This document shows positions 13,176-63,581 of a DNA stretch of 64,000 nucleotides, piece by piece. The stretch comes from Hydractinia symbiolongicarpus. Lineage: Eukaryota; Cnidaria; Hydrozoa; Anthoathecata; Hydractiniidae. How positions within the stretch are numbered: position 1 is the first letter of the stretch; the number at the start of each line of letters is the position of its first letter. The stretch is taken from the NCBI RefSeq assembly GCF_029227915.1, contig NC_079885.1, forward strand, positions 7,566,001-7,630,000, read 5' to 3'. Under the pieces are notes generated by a model that made no database searches, was not told the DNA's origin, and worked only from the letters and a program-made list of their open reading frames with translations. Made by a program: the position numbers and the translations under genes.

Positions 13176-16100
13176 TCACCAAAGTCTCATGTCTAATCCT
13201 GGTATTGATGTGCATTCAGGACGCTTAGAGCCTGGAATAAACGCCTCCAATGCTTTTCGCTGCATCGAAACTACACCATTTAAGGTATTACACAAAACCT
13301 TCGCCATTGTCATCCTATTGATACTCCTTCTTTGTGCCCAAGTAAAAACACCCGGTCGTTCATAATAAAACCGATCTCCGTTCCGTAATCTTTCGAACTG
13401 GTTTGTTACAATGCAGTGAAATGTTTCACCCAGGACTTTACCACGCACGTGTTTTTCTGCAATGCCAGCAGCGAATAGGTCGATATCATGTGGGCGCTTG
13501 TAAAGCTTCTTGAAGGCCTTTATAACGGATGCTGGGATCAACCCAATAAGGTCCTTCCATGTATTTAAGGTCTTCAATCTACATAATCGTCTCCAATGAC
13601 CGTACGTGCGAATACCGTGATCGCGCCCTCTTTGTATATTCAAAGCGGCAAGATCTGAGTATCCATGGTGACCAACGGGCACAAAAAGCTTTCGGACCAA
13701 TCCAGACGCAAATTTTGTATCGACGACTTGTGATTGGTTGGCACATAATCCGTAAACAATGGGTTCGATTCCATGCGTGCGAAGTGACGTAGTGTTGAAA
13801 AACGAAGCTTGTAGGGAAATGTCATCCATGGCTTTGTTAAAGCTTTTATCCAGCATGGCCCATGAATTTGGAACAAGGCTGTGTCCAAATCTGAACGCAG
13901 CTGTTGAGAATACAGCCACTATACTTGCATCAACGTATGGCTTGTACCCTCTATATCTCTCAACAGTACCTAAAACAGATACGAACTCGTTATAAACGAT
14001 CTTCTGATACACTGCAATGTTTATCTTCCTTGCTGTCTCAAACAACTTATGTTCGTTCCATCGTCTGTGGCGTCTTTTTAGAGCTCTCGCTATGATGTTA
14101 TGATGTCGAGCGAAGAGGGTGTGCATAGCACTTAACACAATATTTTCGTCTCCCCTTTCATCGCCAACAAGAGAACAGCCAGCTGGATTGCGACATGATG
14201 ATGCTGATGCAGGGACAGCAATTGGGAGAAGATTTGATGACGTCATTTTCAATTCTCCACTTCCTAAAGGCGAAAGATATGATTGCTAAAAATGTTCCAT
14301 TTACTGCTGCAAAAAAGAAGCTTATATTTAAAGATCATGCGTTAATATTATTTCCCGCGGTAACATTACTCATCAAAGTAAAGTATAGAAAAATTAGCCA
14401 ATGTCATTTTCTAAAAGCAAATTCTGTAGGCAAAATGCAGCATGATTGTTTAGAAAAGCTAAAAAAGTAGTAAGTAGAAGTTTAGCCTGGTGTAGAAAAA
14501 TCATAACTAGGGAGTACCTAATAGGGAAATAACATTTTTTCCTGATACTTGAGTTTTTCATTAGTGCACTAACATAAGTATGCAATAAAACATGCAAAAT
14601 TTGTTTGTATAAACACCGGGAGTGCTTTCGAGAGATCTTTAACCCGAGAAGTGCTTTCGAGAAATTTCGTAACCCGAGTAGTGCTTTTTGAGACATTTCG
14701 TAATCCGAGAAATGCTTTCATAAAGGCAGATTGACACAGACCCGGTTATCAAAGCATTATTTTCTTCCATTTTTTTCGAAGTGGATTCCAAAGTCGGCTT
14801 GTTAGAAGCACCCTTTCTACGGCCTATTAACGCTAGGTCGTTACTAGAAAATGCATTTTGGCGCGAAAGTAAGACGGAAGGGATTCTCAAAGTACGCATG
14901 TCCCCAAGTAGGTGAGAAATTGGGCGCTTACCGTCTAATTTTCTCAAGCTTTGATGAACCTTGAATTCATTGCTGTAAACTTGCGACAGGTCAAGGTACG
15001 AAGATAATACATTTGGAAAGTCCCTCTTTTTCTTACTGTTGCCCTGACAAACTGGAAAAGAACGGCCAAATGAAGTGCACCTTGAACCACTGTTTGAAAA
15101 TTTAATTGGGAAACATGGATATTTGAATGCATCGAGTGATCCGCATCTAAAATGAAATGAATAAAGTGATTATACGAAATGAACTGATTGTTGAAAGGGC
15201 CGACGAAACGGGGGAAGGCGACAGCAATAGAATTTTAATAGTGTTTTAGCAGTCTGGTGGTTTGAAATTACAAACATTTCTAGGGGGGCCTCAACTGTGG
15301 TTAAACATGCCTTCGTTAGTCACTATATAACCCCCCAACCGTACTTTCAAAACAAACTTCTATACGCTGATCTATATTTTTCTCCGTTTTTCTAAAAAAA
15401 TTGAATTAACTCGTTGGACAACAGTCAGTTACGACTTTTACTAGAAAAATATTGTATAGCAAAGCGAAGCAATAGAAGATGAAGGAAATATAGTTTTATA
15501 TGGTTATAGAAATTAAGAATTCACTTGAGATTGACTGTAAATGAAACAATATATCTATGGTTTGACTTATTAAAGAATGTTTTGTTAGAAATATAGGTAA
15601 ATATACCCAGCAGACACGTTGCACGATGCATGTGGTGTAAGGGCAAAGTCATGATCAACAAACTGTCCAAAACCCATAAACAAACTTGACAATCCTTTAG
15701 CATGCTGTTTGTTTCGATATTGCACACCAAACACAGCACGGGAAACTTCGTGAGCTGTTGGAACAGAGGGAGTCGTGCCAGGAAAACCACGTGGTGTATC
15801 CAGCCTTTTCGGATCATAATAATCAGGAGCTGGAATAGGAAAAAGAGAACAAAATTAATTTTATAGTTAACAAACTGTCAACAATACACTTTGCTACGAC
15901 TTTGCGATGTCAATAAAAAAATCAGGGCAATAAAACCGTGGCGAGGAGTTTTATCTCTACACACAACGTTTGTGACAAGATGTGGCTTTAAAAATTAGGT
16001 ACGTGATTAGTCTTGATATTTGCTCTTGTAATGCAGTGCAGGGAATATCCTTATACCCAGGAAGAGTTTAGCCGTTGCTTAGCAACATATAGACAATAGC

Positions 16101-41711: not shown

Positions 41712-41974
41712 TTATGAATAAAGGAAGCTCGCGCATTCGAATTTGCAATGGAATGTCTTCATGAGATACTTTTAAAGTGTGCGCAAATGCGTCAAACTTT
41801 TCATCAAACTCCATAAAACTAGCGAGTTTGATGAAAGTTTTGATGCATTTGAGTCGAACCATCAAACACGATTTTTTCGAAAAAATGAGATAAGAAGAAA
41901 AAAATTGAGTTTGATGAAGTTTTATGAAGTTTTATCGCGTTCAAACTTTTCAGAAAGTGAAACAGAGATCAAAA

Positions 41975-42301
41975 ATGGCGATTAGATTGCCAAAAAAAAA
42001 AGAGAAGAAGAAAACGGCTGCTAAAAACAAAAAAGAACTAAAGTTAAAAGTTGATAATAAAGCCAAGGCTGCCAAAGATTGGACAGATGAAGAAACTTCT
42101 GAACTCATCGAATTGCTTGAAGTCAACCCTTGTTTGTGGGATATTTTCCCTAAGAATTACACAAATCGTGATTCAATGGGATTAGCATACTCAGAAATGG
42201 CAATGTCTTTGAATACCACCGTCGATTCAGTAAAGACAAAGATAAACAGTCTGATAACACAGTTGGGAAAAGAGCTTTCTAAGGAAGGAAGCACAAGTTG
42301 A
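41975..42301 (+). CDS. Harbinger accessory protein, Myb/SANT or MADF-like, truncated at the C-terminus
   Basis: 108-codon ORF starting MAIRLPKKKEKKK, a basic nuclear-localisation stretch, followed by a trihelix/MADF-type DNA-binding domain (WTDEETSELIELLEVNPCLW, KINSLITQLGKELSK). In Harbinger elements this partner protein brings the transposase into the nucleus and onto the ends. The ORF stops shortly after the helix region, where related proteins continue, because of the internal deletion. The start at 41975 precedes the basic stretch; an in-frame ATG lies upstream at 41924. Confidence 0.7.
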   Translation: MAIRLPKKKEKKKTAAKNKKELKLKVDNKAKAAKDWTDEETSELIELLEVNPCLWDIFPKNYTNRDSMGLAYSEMAMSLNTTVDSVKTKINSLITQLGKELSKEGSTS

Positions 42302-42309
42302 TGAAATCC

Positions 42310-43099
42310 TATTGAGGAGACGGCTTCAGCATAAACTGTTTCAAAGCAAAGGCGTCATCTCCAAGAAAAATATAAGGGGCTTCTTCACCATTAGGCAATT
42401 TCGCGTCCTTTGGAAAAGTATGCCTTGAAGTAGGGACATTTTGTTCCATACACCTGAATCATTTACCCTTCCATTAGATCCAACATCGGCATATAAACAT
42501 TCATATTCAGGACCTGCAATTGCCACTAAAATAATGGAATGATGATGTTTATAGTAAAATGAACCACCATTTTTGGATTTTTGCTTCCCGTCTATTGCTC
42601 CTAAAGCGTGCGGAATATTCTATCTTTCTTCAAATTTTTGAGAAATTTGTAACCACTCCTCGTCAGAAGATGGAACTTTGATGAATTCGGTCGCTATTGT
42701 TTCTACTATTGCTTTATAACATCCTTTGACAATAAATGACACATCGTTTAATGATATGCGGAACTGGAAACTTAGAGATTTAAAAGCTTCCCCGATAGCT
42801 AAAAACCGTAAAGCTAATGCTAGCTTTTCATCAGCATTCACGGGTTTGGTTCCACCAACTCTCTCCTTAGGCGAAAGTAAATCCGAAATTTTGGTTAATA
42901 TAAACTCAAAATCAACAATATCCATTCGGAACATTTCTCGGAATCCAAATCGATCTTCGATTTTTAGTTCCTTTACAATGTTATTTCCCTTTTCATCTCT
43001 TCGTTTTATCCAGCTGCGTGTTTTTCCTCGATGTGGCTTTTCATCATTAGAATCAATAAGCTCACTCAATACCAGAAGTTTCGCCAGACCAGCCGCCAT
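42310..43099 (-). pseudogene. Harbinger (HARBI1-like) DDE transposase, one nonsense codon, one frameshift, C-terminus lost
   Basis: Starts MAAGLAKLL at 43099. The N-terminal helix-turn-helix region (EKLALALRFLAIGEAFKSLS) and the linker IKVPSSDEEWLQISQKFEE are intact. A TAG at 42622-42620 replaces the usual Trp codon (TGG) before NIPHALGAIDGK, which has the first catalytic Asp. YADVGSNGRVNDSGVW follows with the second Asp. A frameshift near 42420 separates this from FLGDDAFALKQFMLKP. The final catalytic Glu region is missing. Confidence 0.85.
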
Positions 43100-43536
43100 T
43101 TTAAAATGTTGTAAATGAATAGACCTTAAATCATTTCGAATGTTTTGATAAAACGTTTTTTGACGAGTTAACGCAAATGGAAAATTCGATTTCATCAAAC
43201 ATTTGCAGTTTGATAAAATTTTCATCAAACAGTTTGATGAGCTGTTTGATGAACAGTTTGACGCATTTGCGCCCGTCTTTACTGGGAAAGTTAGTTTTTA
43301 CTGGGAAAAAAGTAATTTACCATTCATAAAAGAGTGATTTCAAGGGAGTAATAATTTCCGTGTTGGAGTAATAATTTCCTGGGAAATTATCACTCCAGGT
43401 ACGGGGGGAGTAATTTTTTTCGGGGAGTAATTTTTTACAGTTATACTGGCTCCACACTTTTTTGCCAAGAATTGATGTTTTTTTTAAGGTTATTATGTGT
43501 TTCAATCAATTATTAATTGATCAATATATATATACA

Positions 43537-46639: not shown

Positions 46640-49600
46640 TTAAAGGCTTGTGATTTGATACAGTCTACGTCTTCTTCTTCTCCCGTTATATTCGACTAAC
46701 TGTGGTACGTTCCCTCTTTTTACATGTATACTATAATTTCTTTTCAAGTCGTTTAGTTGAACCCTTTCACTTGAGTGTTTCGCGTCGTACGAATTAACCA
46801 ATTCTTTGAAGCTCGTTTTAAACTCTTTAAATATGTCCTGGACGTTAACTAGGTCATCGTGAAGAATTTCCATATCGTCTACAAAAAAGTGACTATTACA
46901 AAGCAGGAGCTAATTCCGAAACTAATAGGGTTTAAAGACTACACAGCCTGTATGACTTAACTGACTGGTCCTCAAAAAGTAATAAAAAATGGAATATTAA
47001 AAGAAAGGAATCAGTTGCCTGGGTACAATTCATTTTTTGCATTTATTGCAATCTTTAATTTGTCCTTTATTTTTAAATCTCATATAAAATTTCAATCTGC
47101 TCTCTCACACAAATATAATACTATAGCTATATATTTAATACTATATATAATACTATATATACCAATACTAAATCCAGGAAAAACAATGCCAAACACCTAT
47201 TTGTCAAGAATTTGTCTTAAAACGATATGGTATAATGGACACAAAGTTGCTTCCAAGACTATTAGATTTTTTTACAAAAAACTTTTTTCGTTCTTGAGAT
47301 ATTTGTTGTACTGTAGACTGTAGACTTTTCAGTATGCTATTTTGGCATTTGCAAAGTTTGAAAGTTTTACAATGATCCTTAATTACAGAGCCATTATCTA
47401 ATATCACAAATTTTCAAGCATTTATATGTTAAGAACTAAGAAAATACTTTAAAAAAATCCAAACTACGTTATATATGTTTTTGTTAAAAAATGCTATTAC
47501 TAGTTTTAAGAAGGTAATTAATACCTCTAACAAGATTTTAAAATTCATTGTTGTTGCTTCGGCTGGCTTGTGTGCAATAAAAAAATGTCAGAATATAATT
47601 ATCATTTTTCGTGTTATGGTTTCGTTGAAAACACTACTTCTACACGAACCCCTTGATGTTCAAAACTTACCTTGCGGTTGAATCTTTTTAAATGGTCGTC
47701 TGGAGATGAAGAAGAACCAGATGAAGCAACCAATGCAAGCCATAACCAAGTACATGATAATAAGATACAACACAGCTGACGTTGATTCTTCGGGTGTCAA
47801 TAGTAATTCCTCGACTTCCAGAACTTCAGGCTGAAAAAAGATGATACACCTATGCCATTTTGTTTATTAAAAGGGCTACAAAACGATACAATAAGCTTAC
47901 TCCCCCACATTTCGAAGAATGGCGTGTAATAAACGGACCACTCAAAAGGTTAAGATAATTATACACACTTTAGAACCACATAGACGTCTAGACAACTTGT
48001 TTAAGAGAAAAGTCTTCTTATTGGCGGTAAAATAAGCTATGATCTGTAAAATAAATTAAATATCAGTAAATCGAAACTTTGTTTTTGATGAAGGAACCTC
48101 TGTTCACGAGGAAATGTTTTTGTTAAAAAATGATGATACTAGCTTTAAGAAGGTAGTTAATACCTCTAACAAGATTTAATGTTTATTGTTGTTGCTTTGA
48201 CTGGCTTTGTGAAAAAACACATATAGCTAGGTAGTTCAAAAAGTTCGAAGTTTATTTTATTATAAAAATATGAATAAAAAGCAAAGTAAGTAGTGTTTAT
48301 ATCGAATAAATTATGGATATGGATTAGGATATGCAGGGAACTTTTCTGTCATTTCCAGTTATCTTTATATGCCCGAGATGATATTCAAGAAGATTTAAGT
48401 TGTTGTTTTTGTCCTTAGTGATCATAAACCTTTTCACCGCCATTAGCTAGATTCGTGTAAGTCACTAAAATCGAAATCCAAAAGCCATTTTGTATTCCCT
48501 TTTTAATAACTTAGGAAAGAGAATGCGCAAACACATGGGAGAAAATAAAGAAATTACTTGGAGAATTCCAATTTTCTTTTCAACAAACAGCGAAATACGA
48601 GCTTGATTAGAAGACACGTAGCTTCTCATGTCATCTTCAAGCCTTTTAAATTCACCAGACAACACCACTCCATATCCACTTTGAAGATCAAGAATTTTGT
48701 AAATCTTCAAATTCCTTTCTTTCAGTGCAGCATTATACCCTTTAGTCGCGAACGCATCAACTATACCCAACTCGACATTGCCATTGGAGACAGCGTCCAT
48801 AACTTGAGTGATTGTTGTATAATTTGATTGCGAATCAACAATTGCATTTCGTAAAATGGACATTCTTTGCTCAAACGAATTATTGATGGCGGCAACCTTT
48901 TGGAAAAAATGGAAAATAAAAATAACAAGAAATTCTGATCAATTACCAATCCACTACCATACCAAAGCTAAATAACAAACAACGCGGATAGGTAAATGTT
49001 AATGGTATAACGTATGCGAAACATACCTTTGTACCATACAGTTTATATTCTTTATCTAACGAGCTCACACTCATCCCAGTCGAAACAGTGCCACCAAAAA
49101 TACTCACAATAGCTAAGCCAACCAGAATCCAAACAATCATAAAAGCTTTGGAAACATTTGCAGCTGGGACGTAATCCCCGTATCTGGAAAAACAAATGAC
49201 ATCAATATCGGTATTCTGTTTCTCTGTTAAAAATGGTTGCTTATTTCCGCATTTTTAGGAAGCAAAGAGTTATTAAACTAGAAAGAACATTTTAATCGCA
49301 CCTATAGTTATAGCAAAACCCCCGGCAGCTAAATTTTATTACTTCGTGCTAACAGGTGAGCATGGGTGCATGAAATAGCAATGCAGGAGATATGTACGAC
49401 AGAAAAATAAAGACCAGCGAACCCGTAGATTCTGTCACGGGCTAACGACTAGTCTTTTATATTAATATTAATATTTGAATTTGTGTGTTGATAATGGCCG
49501 AGTGCAACTTTGTGCAACGCAAATAGTCTATGAAAATTAAATGCTTTGGTTCCTAATAACTGTTTGTAATTCTAATATATAACATTTTAAAATGTAAAAA

Positions 49601-52600
49601 TAAGATGTATTATTTTCTCATTTTGTGAAGATCTGAAAATATTAATATATATTTACCCCAACGTTGTCATGGTAATGAATGACATCCAAAATGCTTCATA
49701 AGCTCCGTAGATACTTCTATCTTGAGTAAGGTCAGGTGAATCAGCGCTTTGTTCCTTCAAACAAAGTTAAAAAAATACATTTGTGAAGAAGTGCGGTGAC
49801 ATCCAATTTTGATGGACCAATTTTTGCGGTTTCTGTAGCTTTTAACTAAACTTGATAGATATCAAAATATCTTATCGCAAAAGTCAATCACAAAAAGTCA
49901 ATAAACTGTGATTTACACCACAGTCACAAAGAACGCAATTTAATTCACATGAAATTAAAAAATCAAGCGCAGCCACCAAATTTATGACAAAATTAAAACT
50001 CGCGAAATTAAAGACCCACAAAAAGGTAGTACCATTAAAGTAGCTTAAAATGCTACAATTCCCTTTTGTTTAAAACAAATTGTAAGCAAATAACACAAAT
50101 CAACGACAGAAATACGCATGAGATTGCTCTGAACTGCCTGCCACACACGCCGGTTCGCGGTCATCAGATTACATTTAAAGTGCGCCAGAACATCGAACCT
50201 GCAATCTTATGACTCCAAGTCGAATGCGCTACCACTACACCATCCTTGTTATGTTTTTTTAAGACTTACCAAGAACCATAGTATCCATCCAGACATCATT
50301 GCTAACAACACGGCAATGAGAACTACAGGCCATGCGGTAAACACTGCTTTGAAAATATTCACAAATCCCACAGTTTTATACTCTGGTTGGTAAACAATCA
50401 ACGCACTTCCCTGCGAACTAATTATCCCGACAAACGGATGTTCACCTGCAAAACGTGTCAGCGTAAACCTGCCAAAGATTGGAAACGAAAAATGCACATT
50501 GTCGTCCAGGTATTTCTTAACATTGGCCACATTAGATTTCTTTGAGGACCGTCCATCTCTAGTTTTGTTGTAGTACATGGTGGAATGGTGAGAGCGGCAA
50601 CCAGTGCAAATAGCATCCACCACCATGGTCAATATATCGGGATATAATCCTTTAACGAGATCTGAAGTGCTTCCAATTTGTTCGATGTAAGGCTTCGACT
50701 CGAACCAATTGTTGAAAATATATTTCGGACACTTGCATGTATCTAGAAGCAACATGATTGTTATAAGCAAAACTATTGGATTTCCTGGTGCAGAGATATT
50801 TTTTAACTGTCTTTGGACCCGCAAGACATATATTAATAGACCAATCTCGACTACAATTTGCATTAGATATTTAATATTACTATTAAAATTATTATGGTTA
50901 CTTTTATTGCCACAATTTGTTTTGGAAATCGCTACATTTAGGCGCAAGAACTTATTTCCGCGAATCCGACCCCTTTTAGACATTGCGTGGGATATCATTT
51001 TCGCCAATAAGCTTTTTTATTAACTAAGAAAATTTCGAAATTTTAAACTGAAATCGCATCAAGCTCCAGTTAATTTTGGAACAAAACAATTAACTAAAAA
51101 TTGCTAAAAGCTTCACGTGTAGTTTTAGTAACTTTTTTTAAAGAGGGTTAGTCTCGCGAATTAGTCAACAAAAATTTTGCAATAACTTTCTCTCTTCGCG
51201 GAAATATAAATTCACTAATGGAATGACAAAAATCACCAACCTCCTAATAACACAACTTTCGGTCCATCCCCATACACAGAGAACGCATACAAAGTAATTT
51301 CATATTGAGTATAACTTTCCAAACCAGTCATAAGGTAGCGTTTTGTGAATCGGTCAAGTATTACATCCACAAAGGGTTCCCCAGAGGGCAAATCCACGCC
51401 GGAAACTTGTACACGCCTGTAGTACAACCTATAGCCAGCTAGATATCCATTCTCGTTTTCTTTTGACATAAAATCCCAAGTGACAAGCATCTCCGTTGTT
51501 GATTCACGTTCGTGAGCAGTCGCATTTGGCGGGGCTATCTCAGGAGCTGTAATATGATTGAGGTGATACGTGTATATACATATAGAAACGAATGCACTAT
51601 GATTGATAGAATCACAGTGAACAAGCAAGATGTGTAAACAATGAAACAAAAGGGAGATAGAGTAGTATAAAACAAAGAGAAGCAATGGTGGATAACTAAA
51701 CTTCTTCTTTATTTCTAAGGGTTGATTCTTTAAGAAGGATTCTTGCGTGAAAGGAATGATCATCCTTATTACGTATATAAATCATGCGCACGAGAAAAAT
51801 ATTCCTATCATCATAAAAGTTTTTTTTTAATAATACTTAGGCTTACCACCAGGAGGTGTCTGGAAAACAAAGAGCTCAAAAGGTCCAGTTCCCGCACTGG
51901 TAAAACCAGCTACCTCCACCCAGTACCATGTATAAGGTCTGAACGTTGCAACAGTTTTTTGAGACATTGTTTCATCTGCAATTGAATAATGGGTGTTATT
52001 CTTATCGAAATACTTGCGATATTTGATCTCGTATCCACGTAGTATTCCTGGAACTTGAACCGACGGTATTTCGCTCCAAGAAAAGTATACGGTTTTTGCA
52101 TCGAGAATCAGATAGCTACAGGATGGAGGCTTGATATACGGCTCTAAAAACAACAACAGGTAACACATTAACTTAAAGTTAGACCAAGAGACCAACCATC
52201 ACACGTCTGGTGTGTTTCTGTGTTGTTTCGACAAAGATTAGACAAGAGCAGTTACACCAATCAAATTCATTAGCCTTGTTTTAAAGTAACATCCCTTCGC
52301 TGACACAAACAGATTAGTGGTATTACGCAGTACTACGTAGTAATTTGCCTACATGCGTGGCAGTTTTTTTAACAATGGAAACATGAAAATAAATGACAGC
52401 AAATTTCGCACATGTCTTACAACCATCAGGTGACGTAAAACAGGTAATTTCCTATATATTACAGATAAACAGTTTCAGAAAAAAAATTTTCAGCTATAAA
52501 GTTATTACGTTGATTAAACTAAATCTCTACATGGATGTTATTCTCACTTTTGTGTATCGTCTTTGTGTACATCGCTGCCTTTTTTAAATATCTAACGCCC

Positions 52601-55600
52601 GCTTTAGATCACGTGACTAAGGCTATTGTTTATTGAGGAATCTTTGTTGAATCGCATATTATCTTCAAAAAAAATACTACAGCTCGCAGAATGTGAGCGT
52701 TTAGCATTACAAATATATCTTACTTCCTTCGATGGTACGTATAATAATCTGCGAAGACGCTACACCATTGCCAGAATGCGTTGCAGCTAACACGCGAATC
52801 ACGTACTCTGTACCCGGGTCCAAATCAACAAGCTGGTAACTTTCATTCGCCGTCCCAAAATTATCCCACGTATTATCTTGCACTTTCTTATAGAAAACTT
52901 GATACATATAAAAATTTCCATTGATCATTGATGCATTGACTGCATCCCACGACACATTGATAGTGAAGGGTGTGTCGGATTGTGCAGTTACTTGAGGAGG
53001 CGGACTATTAGGAACTAGAATAAAAACGAAGTACATATTCACGAAAACATCGCTAATTCAAATATGAAATAATTTAAAAAATATGTTCGAATAAAGAAAT
53101 GTTTGAATTAACCAAATCGAAATAGTAGATGCAGAATTTATAAATGTGTAATTTTCTTATTTTTTACAAAAAAACAATGGAAAAAACTTTTATCATTTAA
53201 CATGATAATTCAGTAGGCAAAGTTTCGGGAGATTTTTCTTTTACTAAACTATCTCTACAGAAATCAAAACTATTAACTTACGTGTAGACACGGACACTTG
53301 CTTTAGACCAACAGGCATAGCGTTAAGGAAACCGTTCTCAATTGTGTGCTGTAAAACGAGAGCTTCGACATGTGGCACTGCTTGATATTCAATACTAAAC
53401 TGAACAATCACGCTGCCTTTGCTAGAAAACAAAACAATTGAATTTAATATTAAACATAACATTCTCCTTCTTGACGTGAACAATACAGCTTCTAACTTTC
53501 AAGCCAGCGGTTCAAAAGATTTTGTACACAAGAAGAACCAATAAAAGAATACCCTTCATAGACAAAAAATTAATAAGAGGAATTTTATAAAATTTCCTTA
53601 TTAAAAAGTGCAATTTTAAAAGAGCGTTTTTGTTTTTGCGTTTGTCTATAATTTGCAAAAAAAAATTGACATAACTTGAAAAAAATTGTTTTGCTATTCG
53701 GTAGTGTTTGGTAACTGTCTTGAAAATAGCTTAAAAACCATGTTGTAAAAATTCTCTTTTACAAAACGTTTTTTGAAGCGTTCAATGAGCACGTAATAAC
53801 AAGATGCAAAGCGGAATTTAAACTCCCTAATTTTTGATTCGTAAAACTGAAATTTTTTTCGGTCTACAGACTGGCTTTTACAGCCTACCCTTGGTAAACT
53901 CATTGTAGGGAGGGAGGCAGGCTTATTTCCTTTTAATCAATAGTTAGATAGGGTTTAATAAATTGAAGGAGGTTGATTCTCATTCTAAAATTGGTAGAGA
54001 TGGGGGGTGGCGATACTTTAGTAGGGGAGGGTGATTGAGTTTAAAAATTGGAAAGAGTGATAAAGTTTGGTGTTGTCTCCAACAAATTAGGTTACTAATC
54101 GAAAATTAGTGCCATTCCACGTAATTAGCGTGTCATAGAGTGTCATGTAATTAGCGAGTCATGTAATCAGCGTGACATATACATACAATTAGCGTGTCAT
54201 GTAATTGGAGGGTTATGTAACTAGCGTGTCATGTAATTGGCGTGTCATAGAGTGTCATGTAATCAGCGTAACATGTAATTAGCATGATATATACATATAA
54301 TTAGCGTGTAATGTAATTGGCGGGTCATGCAGCTAGCGTGTCATGTAATTAGCGTGTCATGTCACTATCAGCGTGATATGTAATTAGCGTGACATGTAGA
54401 TATAATTAGCGTGTCATGTAATTGGCGGGTCGTGTAATTAGCGTGTCATGTAAACAGACTGACACGTAATTAGCTTGACATGTAATTAGTGTAACATATA
54501 CACATAACTATCGTGTCATGTATTTAGCGTGTCATTTAATTAGCGTGTCAAGTAATTAACGTGACACATGCATATAATTAGCGTGTCATTTTATTACTAT
54601 CACAAATAATCATACCTCATGCTATGAAAGTTAATCCTGATTTCTTTTTCCAGATCATACATTGTCATATTGGCATAGAAATAACGAATCTGGAAAAAAG
54701 AATGAAAAAATGAAATATGCCAGGAATTCTTAGATTGAACATTTTAATGGTTCTAAAATTTCTTTCAATAGGACACTGACCTTCATAGCAATAACTTATA
54801 TTATAAAAAGTAGCAGGTTATACGATTACTGTCTAATCGAATGCATACCTCTTTTTCAATTCGTCGACTAAGATTTACTGACATCTCATTGCTTAAAACA
54901 TACATTGGAAATTGCCAAACCTCATCAATGAATCGAACATCAAAAAAATACTTAGCACCTGAAATAAATAAAAAATTCTATAAATAAATTTCTCACATTA
55001 ATTCGCATACTTACTGCTAAAAACCTACGAAATAGTGCTGTCAGGATGAATGTGTTGGACTTTGTCCTGAAGTGATACAATCAGCAATCCATGGGATCTT
55101 TTCAAGCGCTAACGACTACTTTTTAATTAATGCCCTCAAATAATTCTTTGGAACCTAAAATTGTCACGTGTTGATGACAAGCCAGTGATTATTATTATTG
55201 CGAATATTTATACAGAATATAATTACTTCAGTGTTGAAAACACTGTTATCAATGTGGGCCCTTTGTTCTAAATGTATACAGGTATACACCAACAGTGCCT
55301 ATCCAATTCTCTCACATGGCATGGGTTAACCCGTAACTCTGGTAAAGACACTTGCTAAACATGCCTGCTAATGACCACGGACCTTATGATTACGAACCGG
55401 ACTCCCTAGTCACACGTCATTATTTATCACAATATTGAAGCAAAATTCCACACTGGTCGTTAGCCAGGTCCACGAGGGATATCCCTGTCGTATATATTTC
55501 CTACACCTTTATTTCGTGCTTTATTGCCAGTCTGTTAACATAAAACAATGAAATTTGCTTGTACGGGGGTTATTACTATCATTATAGGCGCGATTATAAT

Positions 55601-58600
55601 GTCGTTTTCGGTTACAACACCCCCAACTTTGAAAATACCTCAACGACAAACAGCGATTAGTGGCTAGCCTGTAGATATATCCATACATTCACCCGTAGTT
55701 TATAGACAGATAGACAGACACACAGACAGACAGAATACGGTGGCTATTCTTAATATAGAGATACTTACGAGTGCATGGCAAATTTTTTTCACACGGAAAC
55801 GTTCTATTATTATCACCAACACAATTTCGTCCACCAAACAATGGCACAGGATGTGTACAGTATCTCATTTGTACTTTCTTCCCATTCAAACTGCAAGAAT
55901 GTTTACACTCCGAAACAGATTGCCATGGACCCCACTGTCCATGCTCTAAGGACAATAAGATATTTGAATAAATTGAACCACCATGTGATTTGTATATAAA
56001 CTTAAGGGAATAAATTATTTCGGAAAAAAAATTCGAAAGAAAAGAATTTGGCAGGTATTAAACAACTTTTATTCCGCAGTTTTTATTCGCAATCTGAAAT
56101 TTCGCATTTTTAGCGTGTTTTTAATTTTCAATTCTATCTAATTTCTTATGTAAATTTAACATAGATTGCACTTCAGACTTGTTATACAAGCAAAATCAAT
56201 TCCAAGTTGCTATATCGACATATTTAGTTCAACGATTTCAAGAAAATGTGAGCATTCGAAATTTTTCTTAGACTCTATTCATAAATTTAAATTCAGCAAT
56301 AACAATTTCTTCCTCAAACAATTTCTTCCCCAAACAATTTCTTCCCAAACAATTTCTTCCCCAAACAATTTCTTCCCGAACAATTTCTTCCCCGAACAAT
56401 TTCTTCCCGAACAATTTCTTCCCCGAACAATTTCTTCCCCGAACAATTTCTTCCCCAAACAATTTCTTCCCCAAACAATTACTTCCCCAAACAATTTCTT
56501 CCCCGAACAATTTCTTCCCCAAACAATTTCTTCCCCAAACAATTACTTCCCCGAACAATTTCTTCCCCGAACAATTTCTTCCCCGAACAATTTCTTCCCC
56601 GAACAATTTTTTCCCCAAACAATTTCTTCCCCAAACAATTTCTTCCCCAAACAATTTCTTCCCCGAACAATTTCTTCCCCGAACAATTTCTTCCCCAAAC
56701 AATTACTTCCCCAAACAATTTCTTCCCCGAACAATTTCTTCCCGAACAATTTCTTCCCCGAACAAATTTTTCCCAGAACAATTTCTTCCCCAAACAATTT
56801 CTTCCCCGAACAATTTCTTCCCCGAACAATTTCTTCCCCGAACAATTTTTTCCCCGAACAATTTCTTCCCCAAACAATTTCTATCCCAAACAATTTCTTC
56901 CCCGAAAAATTTCCTCCCCAAACAATTTCTTTCCTTCATGTAGCAGTGTTGTCACAATATCATTTTTTTCGACAAAACCAATCCGTTGCACTGAGATAAT
57001 AAAATTTCAATACATTTTTTGCCTATTTAAAGGTGCCATATTTTCAAAATCTCAGACGAAATTATAGTTTTCCCTCGCGGATACATTTAGTTTAACAAGC
57101 CACCTCTTTCCCTTCATCCCTTATTCCTAAACCCTCTTCCCTTACCTCTTCTTAAAATTGTTTCCTACGGCACTGGGAAACACGAGAGAAGTGTTTTTAA
57201 AATAATATTTATTCAAATTTAAAACGATGCTTGAGATTGACACCGCATCAGGTTGAAACTATTTTTTATAAAATTCAACATGAAATGCTGATATCAGTAT
57301 AAAATGTCAACTTGGGCTTTTTGGTATTAAATGGAGTATATCATAATAAAACAAAAGATAAATTTGACATATACTAGCATTTTGTTATTTTCTTTTCCAG
57401 TTCTTGCAGTTGTACAATTATTTTTTCGATAGAGTGGCTTTCAAACTTTACCTTATACAAGGGTGCGCACAGGAAGTCAGTATGGTTATGAAAAAAAAAT
57501 ATTATAACTCATTTTCCCCAAGACCTTTTTTAAAAGGGTTTATTTTGTTTCTTTCAAATGATATCAAGAAAGTACCGACTCTCAGCTTATCTATATCCCT
57601 TTTTCAGGGTAAGTAACTGAAACAATTGGACAACACAAATTATTAACCTCATCAGAAAACAGAATTACTTAAGATATACTATATAATTTTTTAAAAAATA
57701 GACACATACGTGGACAAGGATACGGATTGCACCCTTCCAATTCTTCGATACCTCCATCTGCATCACATTCTTTACCGCCATACTCTGCTTTCGGTGAATC
57801 ACATGATCTTGTCCTGACACGTTTTCCAAAACCACATGGTTTACTGCAATTTGAGAAAAGCGTCCAATCACCCCATTCACCATCAACTAAAAACAATAGA
57901 AAACTAGACGGATGCAACGACATTCTTCTGAATTAGCTTTTTGTTCTTACATTCATTTTGACAGTAGCAATAAAGATCAACAGGAGAACAACAAAACATA
58001 TGAATAGCCATACGAATTGTTACAAAAATGTAACAAAACAACAGATGGCTGAGGTAGTAAAAGTAAATCTTATCACCGCTTTTAACAAAATTTACGCAGC
58101 TGTTGCATTATTGAATCGTGATAAAAACTTTGTTTTGCTCTTGTTGCAATAACAATTTCCTACAAACATTTCTAATCAATAAAATCAATAAAAAAAATAA
58201 ATAAATGAACAATGCTACATACTTGGGCAAGGATTAATGTTGCAATCTTGAAAATCAACATTAGAGCCTGTACAACCAGTGTTTGAAAGGCATTCCCTAT
58301 ATCTTTGATATTTTCCAGAACCGCAACTTTTCGTGCAAAGTCCCCAATTCGCCCATTCGCTGTACTGAGCTGATTCTATACATAGTGTAAGGTTGAAAAC
58401 ATGTCATATATTATCTACAAATGATCTAAAACTGCTCAAATTAATCTACACATTAACAATTTGTGACCAAAAATTTGGCACAACGGCTGTTATTTGACCT
58501 TTTTTTCTACTCTGCAGGCTGCAAAAGTGTAACTTCTGCATAGGCAAGCAGGCTAAACAGCGCTTAGAATTAGCAAATCGCACTGTGTAACACGCCGGAA

Positions 58601-61600
58601 AAACGAAATAATCTACGTCAGGTTCAACAAAGGGTGGAAATATTTGGGAAAACCGTTGTGAACATTAACAAGTTTAATTTGGGTAAATGCAATATAGAAA
58701 TAGCTGAAATTACTACTTGTGGCGACGGACTTCAAAATGTGCATTATGCGATAACATTTTTTCTTCGTGATTATAGATTCAAACGGAATCTATCAAATCT
58801 ATTACCGTTGAAATTAAAAACGTTGTTTAATATCTTTAAAAAGTGTTTTGAAAGAATATAAATCAACATCGTTTACCTTGTCTAAAAGTCAAAAAGCAAA
58901 AGAACAAACGCAAAGATCACCTTCATCAATGCATCTACACAATCGCCTCTGTGAACTATCCGGTTTAGCACTACAGGAAATACTTTTCGGTACACCTACG
59001 AAGCCATTGCAGCGTTTATTTTTAACATCATAGACAGGATCAATGGCTCTTTTATACACACTTCTACTTTTAGTTACGTTGCAAGCGACATCCACAGATC
59101 GAGTGTAATCTCTTACATCAATAGCATCTAAAAAGCGTGCGCTTGAATTGCCTAAATCCATGAAAAATGCACAGTCGAAATCTTTTCCAAGGGATTGACA
59201 GGAATCAGCACAGCTTTCTCCTTCTCGACTGAGATAAAATCCTAAAAAAAAAAAAAAAAGAAAAAACCTAGATGTTTTTGGGAAATAATAATTTTAAAAG
59301 GCTTCCAACACACCAATTAGTTTGAAGAGAGATATTTAACAACAATGCGTTTAAACATCGTTCTCTAACTCTAATACTTACCAGGACATGTAAAATTATT
59401 GCATGTTTTGAATGTCTGATTTACTCCCGGACAATAATCCCCACCAGAGTCCGGTTCAGGATTGGTACACCATCTGTATCTGGTTTCATATCCCAAACCA
59501 CAACTTTTGCTGCAAGCGCCCCAATTTGTCCATATTGTCCAGTTACCGTCAGCTGAACAGGGAAATTGTAAGGACGTTTATAAGTTAGGAAATCAAGTAT
59601 GACTTAAAGGAGTGAAGTGCAAGTTTTCACCTTCTCACTTTGTGACCAGTTTTTACATTTAGCATATAAAATGCTGGTTGTTAAAATCAGAAAAAAAGAA
59701 TAATAAATGGTAGCTACAAGGCCACTAGGTAGCTAGAAGGTTTTTTTTTCGCTATCCCTAACAATACTTACTAAATTCTCCAGTTGTAGCATTAATTTTC
59801 GCACTTAGTGGACCCAATCCAATGCTTGTGTATCCTGCAACTTGAATTACATAGGGTGTATGCAATGACAGTCCTGCTATGATACAACTTGTTTTTTCCT
59901 TTCCAACACATAAAAGGTGACCATGCAATTTATTACCACGGGTATCAGTAAAACTCTCCTCAACGTCGAATTTAATGTAATATCCAAGAAGAACTCCTTC
60001 GTGATCACTCGGATGAATAGGCAGCCAGCTCACATTTAAGCTGTTGCTACTTGTATCAACTCCTGTTACATTTTGAGGTGCAGCACTTGGAACTAGAAGT
60101 TTTTTAAAAAAGCAATTTAGTAAATAAAATTCTTTAGCTATTTATAAGCTTTAAAAATAATTCAACATTTGAATTTTGTTTTCTCTTCACTTTACCGAAC
60201 TCAGTTTTAATATGCATATATAAAGAAATTCCGCTACACTACTTTGCAAATAAAACAACAATATTACCGGTTTCATTCGTCGTGTATACAATCTCTTCAG
60301 TAGTAGGACCTGCTCCAATTTCAGTGTAAGCGGCAATGTTAACCTTATAAGAAGTGTGATTGTCCAAATTATTAGCCAACACGTGGGTAGTGTTGCTTAA
60401 ATAGAACAGAGTGACCTCATCTTCCATTTTTTGCCATTCTGGATGAAGAATATTTGTCAAGCTGATGTTTTTATAAATGATTACACCGCGTCTCTCCATT
60501 GCATAAACATTGGACCAAGAAATATTAAAGCTATTGCTTGTGAAGTTAGTAGCACTAATGTCATTAACAACTCCAGATGGTACTGAAATAAAATAGGGTG
60601 ATAAAATAAGGAAACAACATTAAATAACTTGTGATTACTAATTTCCGCTGGTTGGGAAAAATTTCGCCGGCATTCATTTTTACGGATGATTCTTTCGAAA
60701 ATGAGTATAAATGCTATCAAATATTTTAAAACAAATGCATTTTTCTTAAACAACATTCCAACTAATATAAAAAAATGATTTCTAGTTTTTTATAAATAAA
60801 CTTCAGTTTATGATTTTTGGAGTAAGCATTTCATTTTTTTCTTTGCGTGCATGAAATTGTCGTCTTTCTCATTCTGAGATAAAATTTCACAAATTATTTG
60901 CCTTTTTAAATTTTATTTTCGCGTTTGTTAACTTTCGCGAATAGTATCTTGTTTGTAGGGATATAATTCACGGAACTTCTTCTATTGACTTCCTTTATTA
61001 GTACGATATAATTTGATTTTAATCGTATGTCAACGAAAAGGAAGCACAATGAAACAACAAAAGCACAAACCCATTTCTAAAGTCCTTCCTTCGACATTGC
61101 CAACTTCACCACAGCCTTTTCTTGTGCAAGCACGTATCCGAAACTTATATAGCGTAGCTGGAAACAGATGTAAAAAAGTATATTCATAATCCTTCACATA
61201 AAAATTTAACGTCTGTACTGTTCCATTTTCCAGGAAGCCTTGTCCAGATATATTGAAATCAACCAAAACACCATGAAGGCTGCGTGGTGGTACATCGCTC
61301 CATTTTAACTTCAGTGAATCATTTGTTATATCGATCATTGAGAAATTTGCAGGCGGAAGAGTTGGAACTGAAATTAAAAACAAAATCATCCTACATACTA
61401 AAGAGGTACTAAAGTATATGACTGTTCTTTTTCATCATCTATTATAAAACCTAACACATAGGAATATTTATAACATATTTATTGTTTAGCCCTTGTGTAA
61501 AAATAAGTCAGTAAGCAAGACAAATATCAATAACTTTGAATGCTTCAGGGATAGTTTCTATTAGTTGTTTGAATAAGACAGGATTTCGATTAAACTGTCT

Positions 61601-63581
61601 AGGGTTAAATGAGTTGAAATGCAATTAAAGTTTGGAGTACGATACACCTCTTCACTGAAGAATGCATGATACTGTTTTAGTACTGCTTGTTTAAAAATTT
61701 TAATTCTGATTCGCATCTTCTGATATCACAAGCCTAACTAATCAGTTTCATTCTCTACTAAACCCTAAAAAACAATTGTTTTACGCTGCCATACCACAAC
61801 AAACATTAATTATGTATTAAGGACCTGATTGAGAGATAGCAAATGAATATGAATAGTCGACTTTTTTGTTAAAACTTTAATCTCGTTACTAAAAACATGG
61901 CGTAGAAATCTCTTTTCTAATCCTTGGGATTTAATAAAATCAAATTATATAATTCTTCTTCGTAATATATACCCTTCAATATCATACATAACATGTCAGG
62001 AGGACAATGAGATAATCAAAAATGCAAATACAATGTTTTCAAAGTAAAATTTATTCATAAAACACACAACATAAACAACTTACTATCCTCCAATGTTCGA
62101 TTATATAACATTACAGATGGTCCAGGACCTATTCTTGTGAACGCCGTCACTGTTATGTTGTGATACATAAATTTGGTCATATTAGCAAACATGGTCCACG
62201 TTTCATCGCCAGTCACGTTAATAATTCTTTCAACATGATCACCATAACCATTTTTGACGCTGATGTTGTATTTGATATTTCCATTGATTAGATAACGATT
62301 GGGTTTTCCAATGCAGAGTGAAAAAGTTGTAGAATTGTAATGGACAATACCGCAATTTAAAGGTGGACCATGTGGAACTAATGAAAAGGATATAATATAC
62401 TTAAATCAGATTAATGTACAGTAAACGCCTCCAAATTCCCCAAGGTGGTACATTCCCTTTAGGGGAATATTTACAGCGATACGTATTAACAATATCACCA
62501 TAACCATGTCATTGTATTACAGGTTGGTTATGCAGAACATCAGGTACACAGAATATGATATATTAGGAGGGATTAGTTTAAGCTCCAAAAACATTGCCAT
62601 AAAAAAACTAATTTTAATCGTCCTTTTAGACCGTTTTTGATTTGAAACTAAGTATTTCACTGTAGATATGTGTACAATGTCGTTACCTTAGAAATATATT
62701 TTTACTTGATAATGTAACACTGTTACAAAAAGCTTCGTGCATTTTTATTTTTTATTTTAAATAAAGTGTTTTTTGAAAATACATACAAAAATACACAATA
62801 CTAATCACAACAGGTAAAAACTTACCATCTTCATCAGTCATAGCATGAACTGGCACAGAAACGTTTCCTACTCCATAGTTATTTTCTGCATAAACAAGAA
62901 CAGTATAATTCCAATATTCACGCAAACCAAAAAATTCAATTTCTGTTCCCAAAGTTTTATTAAAGTGAGACAGTTTTTTGACTTCCTCTATGGAGGAAGA
63001 ATTTAACATCATTTTTTCATACACCTCACTTTCAATGACAATGACACCATAAAACAAAAGTTCACCAGCAAGACAAAAATGGGTTATTTCTGCAAATGAA
63101 ACATTCATAGAAGTGGAGCTCGTATTAAACAGGGTTATATTTTCTGATGGACAAAATGGAATATGTCCAATCGTTCGGAATAAAATGCTCATATTAAATT
63201 CACTGCAACCTTCTTCACTGCAAGCTTTGCCAATCATTGAGTAGTTGGTATAATATATCAATGGAAAGAGATGGTGTTGGACGATCTTTGATGAGGCTTT
63301 AACAAGAGAAGTTGAACCATTTAACTGCAATCGTGGGCACTGAAAGAATCCTTCCTTTTGACTGTCCCAGAGCTCTACATCCTCCATCGTGTGGTTGATA
63401 CTAACATTGAACACTTTCCAATCATCTTCCCAATTCATTATTCTGAAGTGTATTTGGTAGTATGTGACTACTGTATTTTCTTCTGCTAAAGGTATCAACC
63501 CAATAGTAATATTCTCTGACGTAGTATCGTTTTCCATGGCATCACCAAACGTCACGTTCAAAACAGTAATCTTCCCCGGAG
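46640..63581 (-). CDS. FN3/TSP1/SEA ectodomain receptor with an iGluR-like, potassium-filter channel core (22 exons, 5' end outside window)
   Basis: Exons in coding order: 63581-62826, 62377-62084, 61367-61071, 60582-60268, 60092-59772, 59552-59382, 59241-58921, 58369-58223, 57886-57710, 55945-55769, 54958-54849, 54689-54616, 53421-53282, 53014-52724, 52143-51847, 51546-51241, 50742-50270, 49754-49657, 49183-49027, 48896-48558, 47830-47671, 46878-46640. They join in one frame for 1885 residues plus a stop, beginning mid-codon, so an upstream exon with the signal peptide is missing. Order: FN3 x6, TSP1, Cys-rich domain, TSP1 x3, SEA, FN3 x3, ligand-binding S1, M1, pore, M2, S2, M4, cytosolic tail. 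Expected to be a plasma-membrane channel with a long adhesive ectodomain and potassium selectivity. The 51241 donor (GTTGGT) and 61071 donor (GTTTGT) are weak. Most exons are phase 1, so joins between domain blocks are plausible but not proven; a break before S1 is the main alternative. Confidence 0.72.
49385..49451 (+). repeat. Helitron-like 3' end in a receptor intron
   Basis: ACCCGTAGATTCTGTCACGGGCTAACGACTAG at the end of the interval, then TCTTTTATATTAATATT, which resembles a second element's start. It lies in the intron between the pore exon and the M2 exon. The left end is unclear. Confidence 0.45.
50165..50245 (-). repeat. tRNA-like degenerate sequence in a receptor intron
   Basis: Minus strand reads GGATGGTGTAGTGGTAGCGC (A-box-like) and GCAGGTTCGATGTT (B-box-like). 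The anticodon stem does not pair properly, so this is a tRNA relic or SINE head, not a working tRNA. Confidence 0.4.
51241..53014 (-). other. Exon block 14-16 of the receptor: three membrane-proximal FN3 domains
   Basis: Exons 53014-52724, 52143-51847 and 51546-51241, window residues about 1101-1398, each phase 1-1 with one FN3 domain. Typical segments are INVSWDAVNAS, YVIRVLAATHSGNG, VYFSWSEIPS, YWVEVAGFTSAGTGP, LVTWDFMSKENENGY and YEITLYAFSVYGDGP. The last exon ends after KVVLLGG with a GTTGGT donor of low quality; its phase fits the S1 exon of the channel. Confidence 0.82.
53282..54958 (-). other. Exon block 11-13 of the receptor: SEA domain with an autoproteolysis-type motif
   Basis: Exons 54958-54849, 54689-54616 and 53421-53282 join with phases 0 and 2 (unlike the phase 1-1 modules) into about 108 residues, window residues 993-1100. 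The first part resembles SEA strand 1 (KYFFDVRF, EVWQFPMYV); the last part carries KGSVIVQFSIEY, the position of the G/SVVV self-cleavage site of mucin and adhesion-receptor SEA domains, followed by GFLNAMPVG. SEA domains usually sit close to the membrane in such receptors; here three FN3 domains separate it from the channel. Confidence 0.65.
54105..54590. repeat. Minisatellite in the SEA-encoding part of the receptor gene
   Basis: Many imperfect units of about 17 bases, (TAATTAGCGTGTCATG)n, with interspersed longer units containing ACATATACATA. It lies in the intron between exons 54616 and 53421. Confidence 0.8.
55282..55425 (-). repeat. tRNA-derived SINE, copy 2, in a receptor intron
   Basis: Shares TCTCACATGGCATGGGTTAACCC, CTCTGGTAA and CCGGACTCCC with copy 1 at 900-1075; the B-box region (GGTTCG) is retained, the A-box region is degraded. 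Confidence 0.45.
55453..55761 (-). mobile_element. Helitron-like element(s) abutting a receptor splice donor
   Basis: Reverse complement starts TCTCTATATTAAGAATAGCC at 55761, only 8 bases from the end of the exon at 55769, so the donor GTAAGTA is followed at once by the transposon. It ends near 55453 with TAACGACCAG. A CTAG near 55660 suggests two elements in tandem. Confidence 0.5.
55769..59552 (-). other. Exon block 6-10 of the receptor: TSP1, Cys-rich domain, three TSP1 repeats
   Basis: Exon 59552-59382 is a TSP1 repeat (WTIWTNWGACSKSCGLG). Exon 59241-58921 is a roughly 107-residue Cys-rich domain that I do not recognise; it has at least eight Cys, starts with GESCADSCQ and ends with RRLCRC. 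Exons 58369-58223 (YSEWANWGLCTKSCGSG), 57886-57710 (WGDWTLFSNCSKPCGFG) and 55945-55769 (WGPWQSVSECKHSC) are TSP1 repeats. The W-x2-W and C-S/T-K-x-C motifs support C-mannosylation; the usual O-fucosylation Ser/Thr is visible in several. Confidence 0.85.
56305..56935. repeat. 16-bp minisatellite in a receptor intron, about 39 units
   Basis: Units of AACAATTTCTTCCCCR with R being G or A, some shortened by one C. It lies in the intron between exons 57710 and 55945. Long open frames on both strands across it come only from the repeat. Confidence 0.9.
59772..63581 (-). other. Exon block 1-5 of the receptor: six fibronectin type III domains
   Basis: Exons 63581-62826 (two FN3 domains in one exon), 62377-62084, 61367-61071, 60582-60268 and 60092-59772 (one FN3 each), window residues about 1-661. 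Each shows the FN3 pattern: a proline-rich start (VPSG, VPSAAP, PTLPPA), a Trp or Phe in strand B (ISWSNV, VSWLP, LKWSDV), and a Tyr-rich strand F/G end such as YKVNIAAYTEIGAGP or YVIQVAGYTSIGLGP. Many N-x-S/T sites indicate an extracellular location. The one-domain exons are phase 1-1, the usual form of mobile extracellular modules. Confidence 0.85.

Follow-up and report, generated by a model that had tools for sequence, protein, structure and literature searches.

The 64,000-nucleotide stretch of the Hydractinia symbiolongicarpus genome analysed here (contig NC_079885.1, positions 7,566,001 to 7,630,000, that is, C11:7566001-7630000 of a genome of 480.9 Mb in 76 contigs; hereafter, the window) carries on its minus strand, at 63581..46640, a gene that joins adhesion modules to a channel and that most likely encodes a predicted K+-selective, adhesion-tethered GluR0-like receptor. 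The first-pass annotation had read a single frame of 22 GT/AG exons and 1885 residues, in which FN3, TSP1, SEA and further FN3 modules lead into a core of two ligand-binding lobes (S1 and S2), membrane helices (M1, M2 and M4) and a pore (P) in the order S1-M1-P-M2-S2-M4. Our rebuilt model agrees, with 22 phase-compatible exons bounded by GT/AG sites (5666 nt; 1887 codons plus stop, no internal stop), a reading frame that is still open at the 5′ end of the window and the same modules, SEA remaining below the Pfam cut-off.

Gene model and ectodomain

At intron composition, the chance of an open run this long is approximately 10^-66 (a rough control that ignores the freedom in splice-site choice), and GC content is 0.397 in exons versus 0.317 in introns. 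Fourteen of the 16 ectodomain exons end in phase 1, the usual pattern of shuffled modules. An earlier model of 23 exons and 1912 residues was rejected because its extra exon, a 75-bp open segment with splice-like borders (48043-47969, minus strand), has no counterpart in eight aligned homologues, including the closest, P0008. By leave-one-out score, the weak donors are those at 61071 (0.3) and 51241 (0.6).

All exons lie on the minus strand, and most modules are supported by both the splice model and Pfam. Exon 1 of the in-window part (62826..63581; residues 1–251) is FN3-like, is placed by its acceptor, donor and frame and is not the first exon of the gene, given three phase-matched FN3 exons upstream. 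FN3 modules follow in exons 2 (62084..62377), 3 (61071..61367, with the weak donor TGG|gtttgt), 4 (60268..60582) and 5 (59772..60092, containing the best fn3 stretch, residues 558–655). TSP1 modules occupy exons 6 (59382..59552, with the best TSP_1 stretch, residues 668–716), 8 (58223..58375), 9 (57710..57886) and 10 (55769..55945), and exon 7 (58921..59241) encodes a cysteine-rich module that, by eye, also lies between the TSP1 modules of P0004. This same-species paralogue combines C-type lectin domains, TSP1, FN3 and the channel, and appears by eye to begin with a likely signal peptide. A SEA-like region is spread over exons 11 (54849..54958), 12 (54616..54689) and 13 (53282..53421), and is succeeded by three FN3 exons, 14 (52724..53014), 15 (51847..52143) and 16 (51241..51546); the last of these, whose junction donor had been doubted earlier, is supported by Pfam and the homologue alignment. 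Run on the 23-exon version, Pfam returned seven fn3 stretches (E 6e-61), four TSP_1 (1.2e-29) and Ion_trans_2 (1.4e-12), with Lig_chan below the cut-off (E 7e-4) and SEA not among the matches of the whole protein.

The SEA assignment rests on sub-threshold Pfam matches (exon 11 in the window; E 0.026 for the window piece alone and 1.5e-4 for P0001, the Actinia homologue) and on a profile of the region, which covers all three exons and, built from the window and P0001, also matches P0014, P0009 and, weakly, P0007. A GS[V/I] motif stands at the expected cleavage turn in the two profile-building sequences (GSVIV at residue 1057 of the window protein, in exon 13; GSVIA in P0001) and in the three found by the profile (GSVYS in P0014, GSIIA in P0009 and GSILA in P0007); by eye, P0004 carries GSILA as well. 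The window motif resembles GSVVV, which we take to be the cleavage site of self-cutting SEA domains.

Beyond what the first-pass annotation had noted, the gene is predicted to continue 5′ of the window with at least three more FN3 exons, which have phase-1 borders and lie, in window-continued coordinates, at 64614-64288, 65129-64815 and 65680-65378. Beyond them, same-strand open frames exceed the Pfam cut-off for C-type lectin, MAM and one LamG (the MAM and this LamG match being obtained from joined neighbouring frames), and there are weak matches to SEA, EGF and two further LamG. No Pfam match to a LIVBP-type amino-terminal domain was found in the window protein or in ten upstream frames, a stretch that does not reach the true N terminus.

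Within the introns of the gene we also observed two minisatellites with a 16-bp period (54136-54563, approximately 25 copies; 56301-56931, approximately 40 copies) and, by eye, a tRNA-derived-looking stretch on the minus strand at approximately 50250-50180, in the intron after exon 17. ARAGORN found no tRNA gene in the window, and the stretch is perhaps a short interspersed element.

The junction between adhesion modules and channel

Exon 17 (50270..50742) opens the channel with the S1 lobe (DTCKC..., from residue 1400) and also holds M1 (within residues 1521–1557); paralogue exons begin at the identical residue. The junction that precedes it is conserved in all nine FN3-type homologues with an S1 (six genera of anthozoans and hydrozoans), in which the last FN3 runs into the (G/A)-x-T-C-x-C start of S1. 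Among fusion-length proteins, a search with the channel part gave seven matches (Actinia, two from Nematostella, Oculina, two from Hydractinia and one eukprot entry), and in every one the channel is fused to further modules; as in the other protein searches, only the approximately 7,990 candidates with the largest number of shared words were scored. A profile search among shorter proteins returned 15 matches, of which 14 belong to the family: two FN3 types in Porites and one in Stylophora, CUB-Ig types in Acropora, Actinostola and Nematostella, and a further eight proteins, short or partial, without such modules. The remaining protein, P0023, was dropped as it looks like a bacterial voltage-type channel. 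Searching for unfused homologues with the window channel alone recovered one truncated protein. The module order TSP1-SEA-FN3x3-channel is shared by the window gene and the Actinia protein P0001.

The genome itself contains at least 19 matches to the S1 exon, including the window, that begin at the first or second query residue. At all 12 loci examined among the at least 18 paralogues (two of the set, L024 and L025, are near-identical copies), an FN3 match lies on the same strand within approximately 1.2 kb upstream; an AG acceptor directly precedes TCxC at 11 of these 12, L035 being without the motif, and TSP1 occurs within 5 kb upstream at five of the seven loci fetched to that distance. It is this conservation in homologues and paralogues and not donor strength that supports the fused junction, and, within the limits of gene models, the FN3–channel fusion is real.

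Two side observations concern the wider family. The Nematostella proteins P0005 (LOC5501884) and P0013 (LOC5501882) have near locus numbers, lie on contigs of equal length and share the same core, with LamG-TSP1-FN3 and CUB-Ig ectodomains, respectively, an arrangement that suggests tandem duplication with module exchange. In addition, 25 further matches in the Hydractinia genome lie in long single open frames of 283–529 residues (contigs C13, C4, C5, C7, C12, C6, C11 and C1), and 15 of them also match Lig_chan; the one inspected, L039, contains TTVGYGD and an S1-like stretch, with no adhesion modules in the frame seen. These are perhaps a large unfused branch, and some could be ordinary K+ channels.

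A K+ filter in a GluR0-like core

Downstream of M1, exon 18 (49657..49754) encodes the pore helix as far as TTLG, exon 19 (49027..49183) the YGD of the K+ filter and the inner helix (residues 1602–1629), exon 20 (48558..48896) the S2 lobe with an invariant aspartate at residue 1689, exon 21 (47671..47830) M4 and exon 22 (46640..46878) the cytosolic tail and stop. The T[V/L]GYGD filter of GluR0-type channels is present, GYGD is found in all 22 family rows and the PDB sequence matches are all K+ channels among the matches listed (60 of 175; 60 of 409). No match to a consensus DNA pattern of the filter was found in the window; an intron (49656-49184) interrupts the codon for the first glycine of GYG, and many paralogue matches begin near there (query 184–191). 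K2P channel genes have an intron within the GYG of their first pore; the likeness may be coincidence or a hint on the origin of the pore.

Structure models of homologues predict a GluR0-like ligand-binding fold, with GluR0-type channels as the top structural matches, and align to AMPA and NMDA receptors over the clamshell, the inserted M1-P-M3 and the M4 that follows S2. M4 (residues 1771–1797 of the window protein) is also found in homologues. Four cysteines in S1 are invariant in the eight-row alignment, and in the larger alignment they occur in 17/19, 18/18, 20/20 and 15/20 of the rows with letters.

The two lobes differ in what they have kept of the ligand site. In S2, the aspartate is present in all 22 family rows and its position matches that of bacterial GluR0-type channels (20/20 family and 73/75 bacterial rows); as the MAFFT placement of the GluA2 acid was wrong (0/19 acidic), this claim rests on the invariance and on the bacterial comparison. 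In S1, the column of the agonist arginine holds no arginine in 19 family rows, versus 7/7 canonical exons of the same genome and 70/75 bacterial GluR0-type channels, a count that covers 19 of 24 proteins (without P0008, P0014, P0018, P0019 and P0023) and seven of eight canonical loci (without L002), and that comes from an alignment that is loose around this column. Two family rows, P0004 and P0007, have lysine there, and the window protein has an arginine two columns on. Neither P0014 nor P0018 shows an arginine at the position by eye in the larger alignment, and the hhalign alignment, in agreement with the 19-row alignment, pairs the bacterial arginine with a leucine of the window protein. 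The 0/20 count from the joint MAFFT alignment of family and bacteria is not independent, because its S1 segment is shifted by several columns. The bacterial rows derive from a collection of bacterial and archaeal genomes (80 loci, of which 75 were used for comparison and 36 for the tree). The predicted clamshell fold suggests a ligand which, given the apparent loss of the S1 arginine, is probably something other than an ordinary alpha-amino acid. The SYTANLAAF-type gate motif of M3 is also absent from the family rows, whereas all seven canonical exons of the genome have S-x-YTA.

The first-pass annotation had called the protein a glutamate receptor-like channel. The core with M4 justifies the likeness. 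The description is to be amended by the K+ filter, by a fold and profile nearest to bacterial GluR0-type channels and by the apparent loss of the S1 arginine; for this last reason we reject 'glutamate receptor' as a functional name.

Compared with known systems, the family resembles the prokaryotic GluR0-type receptors (Synechocystis, Nostoc and relatives) in its clamshell split by M1-P-M2, its GYGD and its S2 aspartate, and differs from them in the M4 helix, the cytosolic tail, the huge adhesion ectodomain, the conserved S1 cysteines and the missing S1 arginine; the two-helix layout without M4 is not that of the window protein, whereas the bacterial open reading frames listed stop shortly past S2. 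With animal ionotropic glutamate receptors (iGluRs; AMPA, kainate, NMDA and epsilon) it shares the predicted S1-M1-P-M3-S2-M4 layout, and differs in having a K+ filter in place of the Q/R/N site, no SYTA-type motif, no S1 arginine and no LIVBP-type domain found. The FN3 tandem fold is that of the receptors LAR and Dscam, the SEA-like region with its GS[V/I] motif recalls SEA-domain proteins such as MUC1, and adhesion G-protein-coupled receptors (GPCRs) offer an analogy for a SEA-type adhesion ectodomain; none of these ends in a channel, their C-terminal parts being a phosphatase, a tail or seven helices. To our knowledge, the described GluR0-type ligand-gated K+ receptors are all bacterial, with the exception of AvGluR1 of the rotifer Adineta vaga. 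PMC12332018 describes AvGluR1 as an animal iGluR with a K+ filter and the eukaryotic iGluR architecture; compared by this description, it shares the filter in an animal receptor and differs in that architecture. As the first-pass annotation had supposed, no iGluR with FN3, TSP1 and SEA modules, nor the family itself, is described in the open-licence PubMed Central literature among the matches listed, and the word 'fibronectin' is absent from the main text of PMC12226733 and of PMC6307864.

The remainder of the window holds exons of a separate animal haem peroxidase gene (13176-15169, minus strand; Pfam An_peroxidase, E 8.5e-108 and 1e-8), a MADF/Myb-SANT-like open reading frame (41918-42298, plus strand; E 7.6e-10) and a frame at 42623-43297 (minus strand) that by eye resembles a Harbinger-type transposase, with no Pfam match at E 0.01. 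The last two are perhaps a DNA transposon.

Origin, alternatives and proposed mechanism

In a tree of the core (without P0008, P0018, P0019 and P0023), the FN3 (88/91), CUB-Ig (100/100) and short types (64/60) each form one group, and the single FN3 group fits one FN3 fusion before the anthozoan/hydrozoan split; the window protein itself sits on a long branch of unsure placement. In a second tree with bacteria and iGluRs (also without P0020), the family joins a Bacteroidota sequence (98/93) and the iGluRs fall elsewhere among the bacteria; an origin of the channel core separate from animal iGluRs is possible.

Several points tell against the explanation that we prefer. The structure models are those of the Actinia and Porites homologues and not of the window sequence, gene predictions account for most of the homologue records and the donor at the FN3/S1 junction is weak. 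With hhalign, S1 alone or S2 alone had no significant match to GluA2. Although the family profile is closer to bacterial channels than to iGluRs, and the bacterial set was the best profile match tried, this comparison is biased, as the bacterial set was gathered by family-pore patterns and the iGluR set is small and mostly without S2. The second tree, which has fewer columns, does not settle the branching inside the family, and the FN3 group is not recovered in it. Finally, the SEA profile had no match in P0002, P0003, P0004, P0005 or P0011, so that SEA cleavage cannot hold for the family as a whole.

We considered four alternatives. That the locus holds two neighbouring genes (one for an FN3/TSP1 adhesion protein that stops near 51241, the other for a distinct GluR0-like channel whose start lies in the open reading frame upstream of 50742) could be argued from the weak donor, from a channel frame that stays open up to 51016 and from the short family members without adhesion modules (P0015, P0016 and P0017); however, the short forms fall outside the FN3 group in the core tree, and the identical fusion point in 9/9 homologues and the upstream FN3 exon at 12/12 paralogue loci contradict the two-gene outcome that the first-pass annotation had held open, at least as far as predicted sequences go, making it highly improbable. 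A glutamate receptor that amino acids gate in the ordinary way, and in which the ectodomain is unusual, would agree with the clamshell modelled like those of GluR0 and AMPA receptors, with the S2 aspartate at its bacterial position and with the lysines and displaced arginine near the S1 column, but we consider it quite unlikely in light of the arginine counts, which are strong evidence, although not final with so loose an alignment. The same loss, together with the large ectodomain, might instead point to a dead or structural ligand-binding domain, in a protein that serves adhesion and leaks K+ constitutively or that acts as a modulatory subunit of other channels; the S1 cysteines and the S2 aspartate, needless in a dead domain, have nevertheless been kept over a long divergence, and we regard this as unlikely.

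The fourth alternative concerns origin: the core may have entered cnidarians from bacteria, as a Bacteroidota-like GluR0, separately from animal iGluRs. The profile comparison (with its biased sets) and the position of the family beside a Bacteroidota sequence are in its favour, whereas a tree that unites the family with the iGluRs is not rejected (p-AU 0.293), the tree sampling is without other eukaryotes and, at 2.42, the stem leading to the family is very long, making long-branch effects likely; we hold such an entry to be a tentative possibility.

Our preferred explanation, which we consider probable, is a very large multi-pass protein in which a GluR0-like S1-M1-P-M2-S2 core with a K+ filter, an M4 helix and a cytosolic tail is joined to an adhesion ectodomain. 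At the level of sequence and prediction, it stands on one gene that joins the modules, on the conservation of this fusion, on the K+ filter and (by homologue models) on the clamshell. The ectodomain (that is, FN3 repeats, TSP1 repeats, a SEA-like domain and three FN3) would replace the LIVBP-type amino-terminal domain, and four subunits may assemble. The clamshell could then open the K+-selective pore on a non-canonical ligand, or when matrix or an adjacent cell engages or pulls on the ectodomain, and the resulting K+ outflow would quiet the cell; the ectodomain would set the site of channel action and might gate the pore. The SEA domain may cut itself to leave a non-covalent heterodimer that could be pulled apart or shed, in which case force or shedding may be part of the signal.

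The relatives of the same build in corals and sea anemones suggest an old, apparently undescribed kind of receptor. A bolder version, which we find doubtful, is that cnidarians possess a large receptor class derived from bacterial GluR0-type K+ channels apart from iGluRs, in which swappable adhesion ectodomains (FN3/TSP1/SEA, CUB-Ig or C1q-EGF) replaced the amino-acid trigger, a self-cutting SEA domain served part of the FN3 branch and contact- or force-gated inhibitory K+ receptors became the ion-channel counterpart of adhesion GPCRs. With its K+ pore and its family of swapped ectodomains, the finding is more interesting than first proposed; it is less secure as regards the glutamate name and the guess at a cell type (stinging cells or neurites). 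A cnidarian multigene family that kept the K+ filter, apparently dropped the amino-acid arginine and carries adhesion modules in place of the amino-terminal domain would mean that ionotropic receptors, like GPCRs, have been joined to adhesion ectodomains. The question of whether one or two bacterial-type ancestors gave rise to animal iGluRs and the GluR0-like family is also touched by it, and it would allow a test of how contact with matrix or cells could directly set the membrane potential in animals whose nervous systems are simple.
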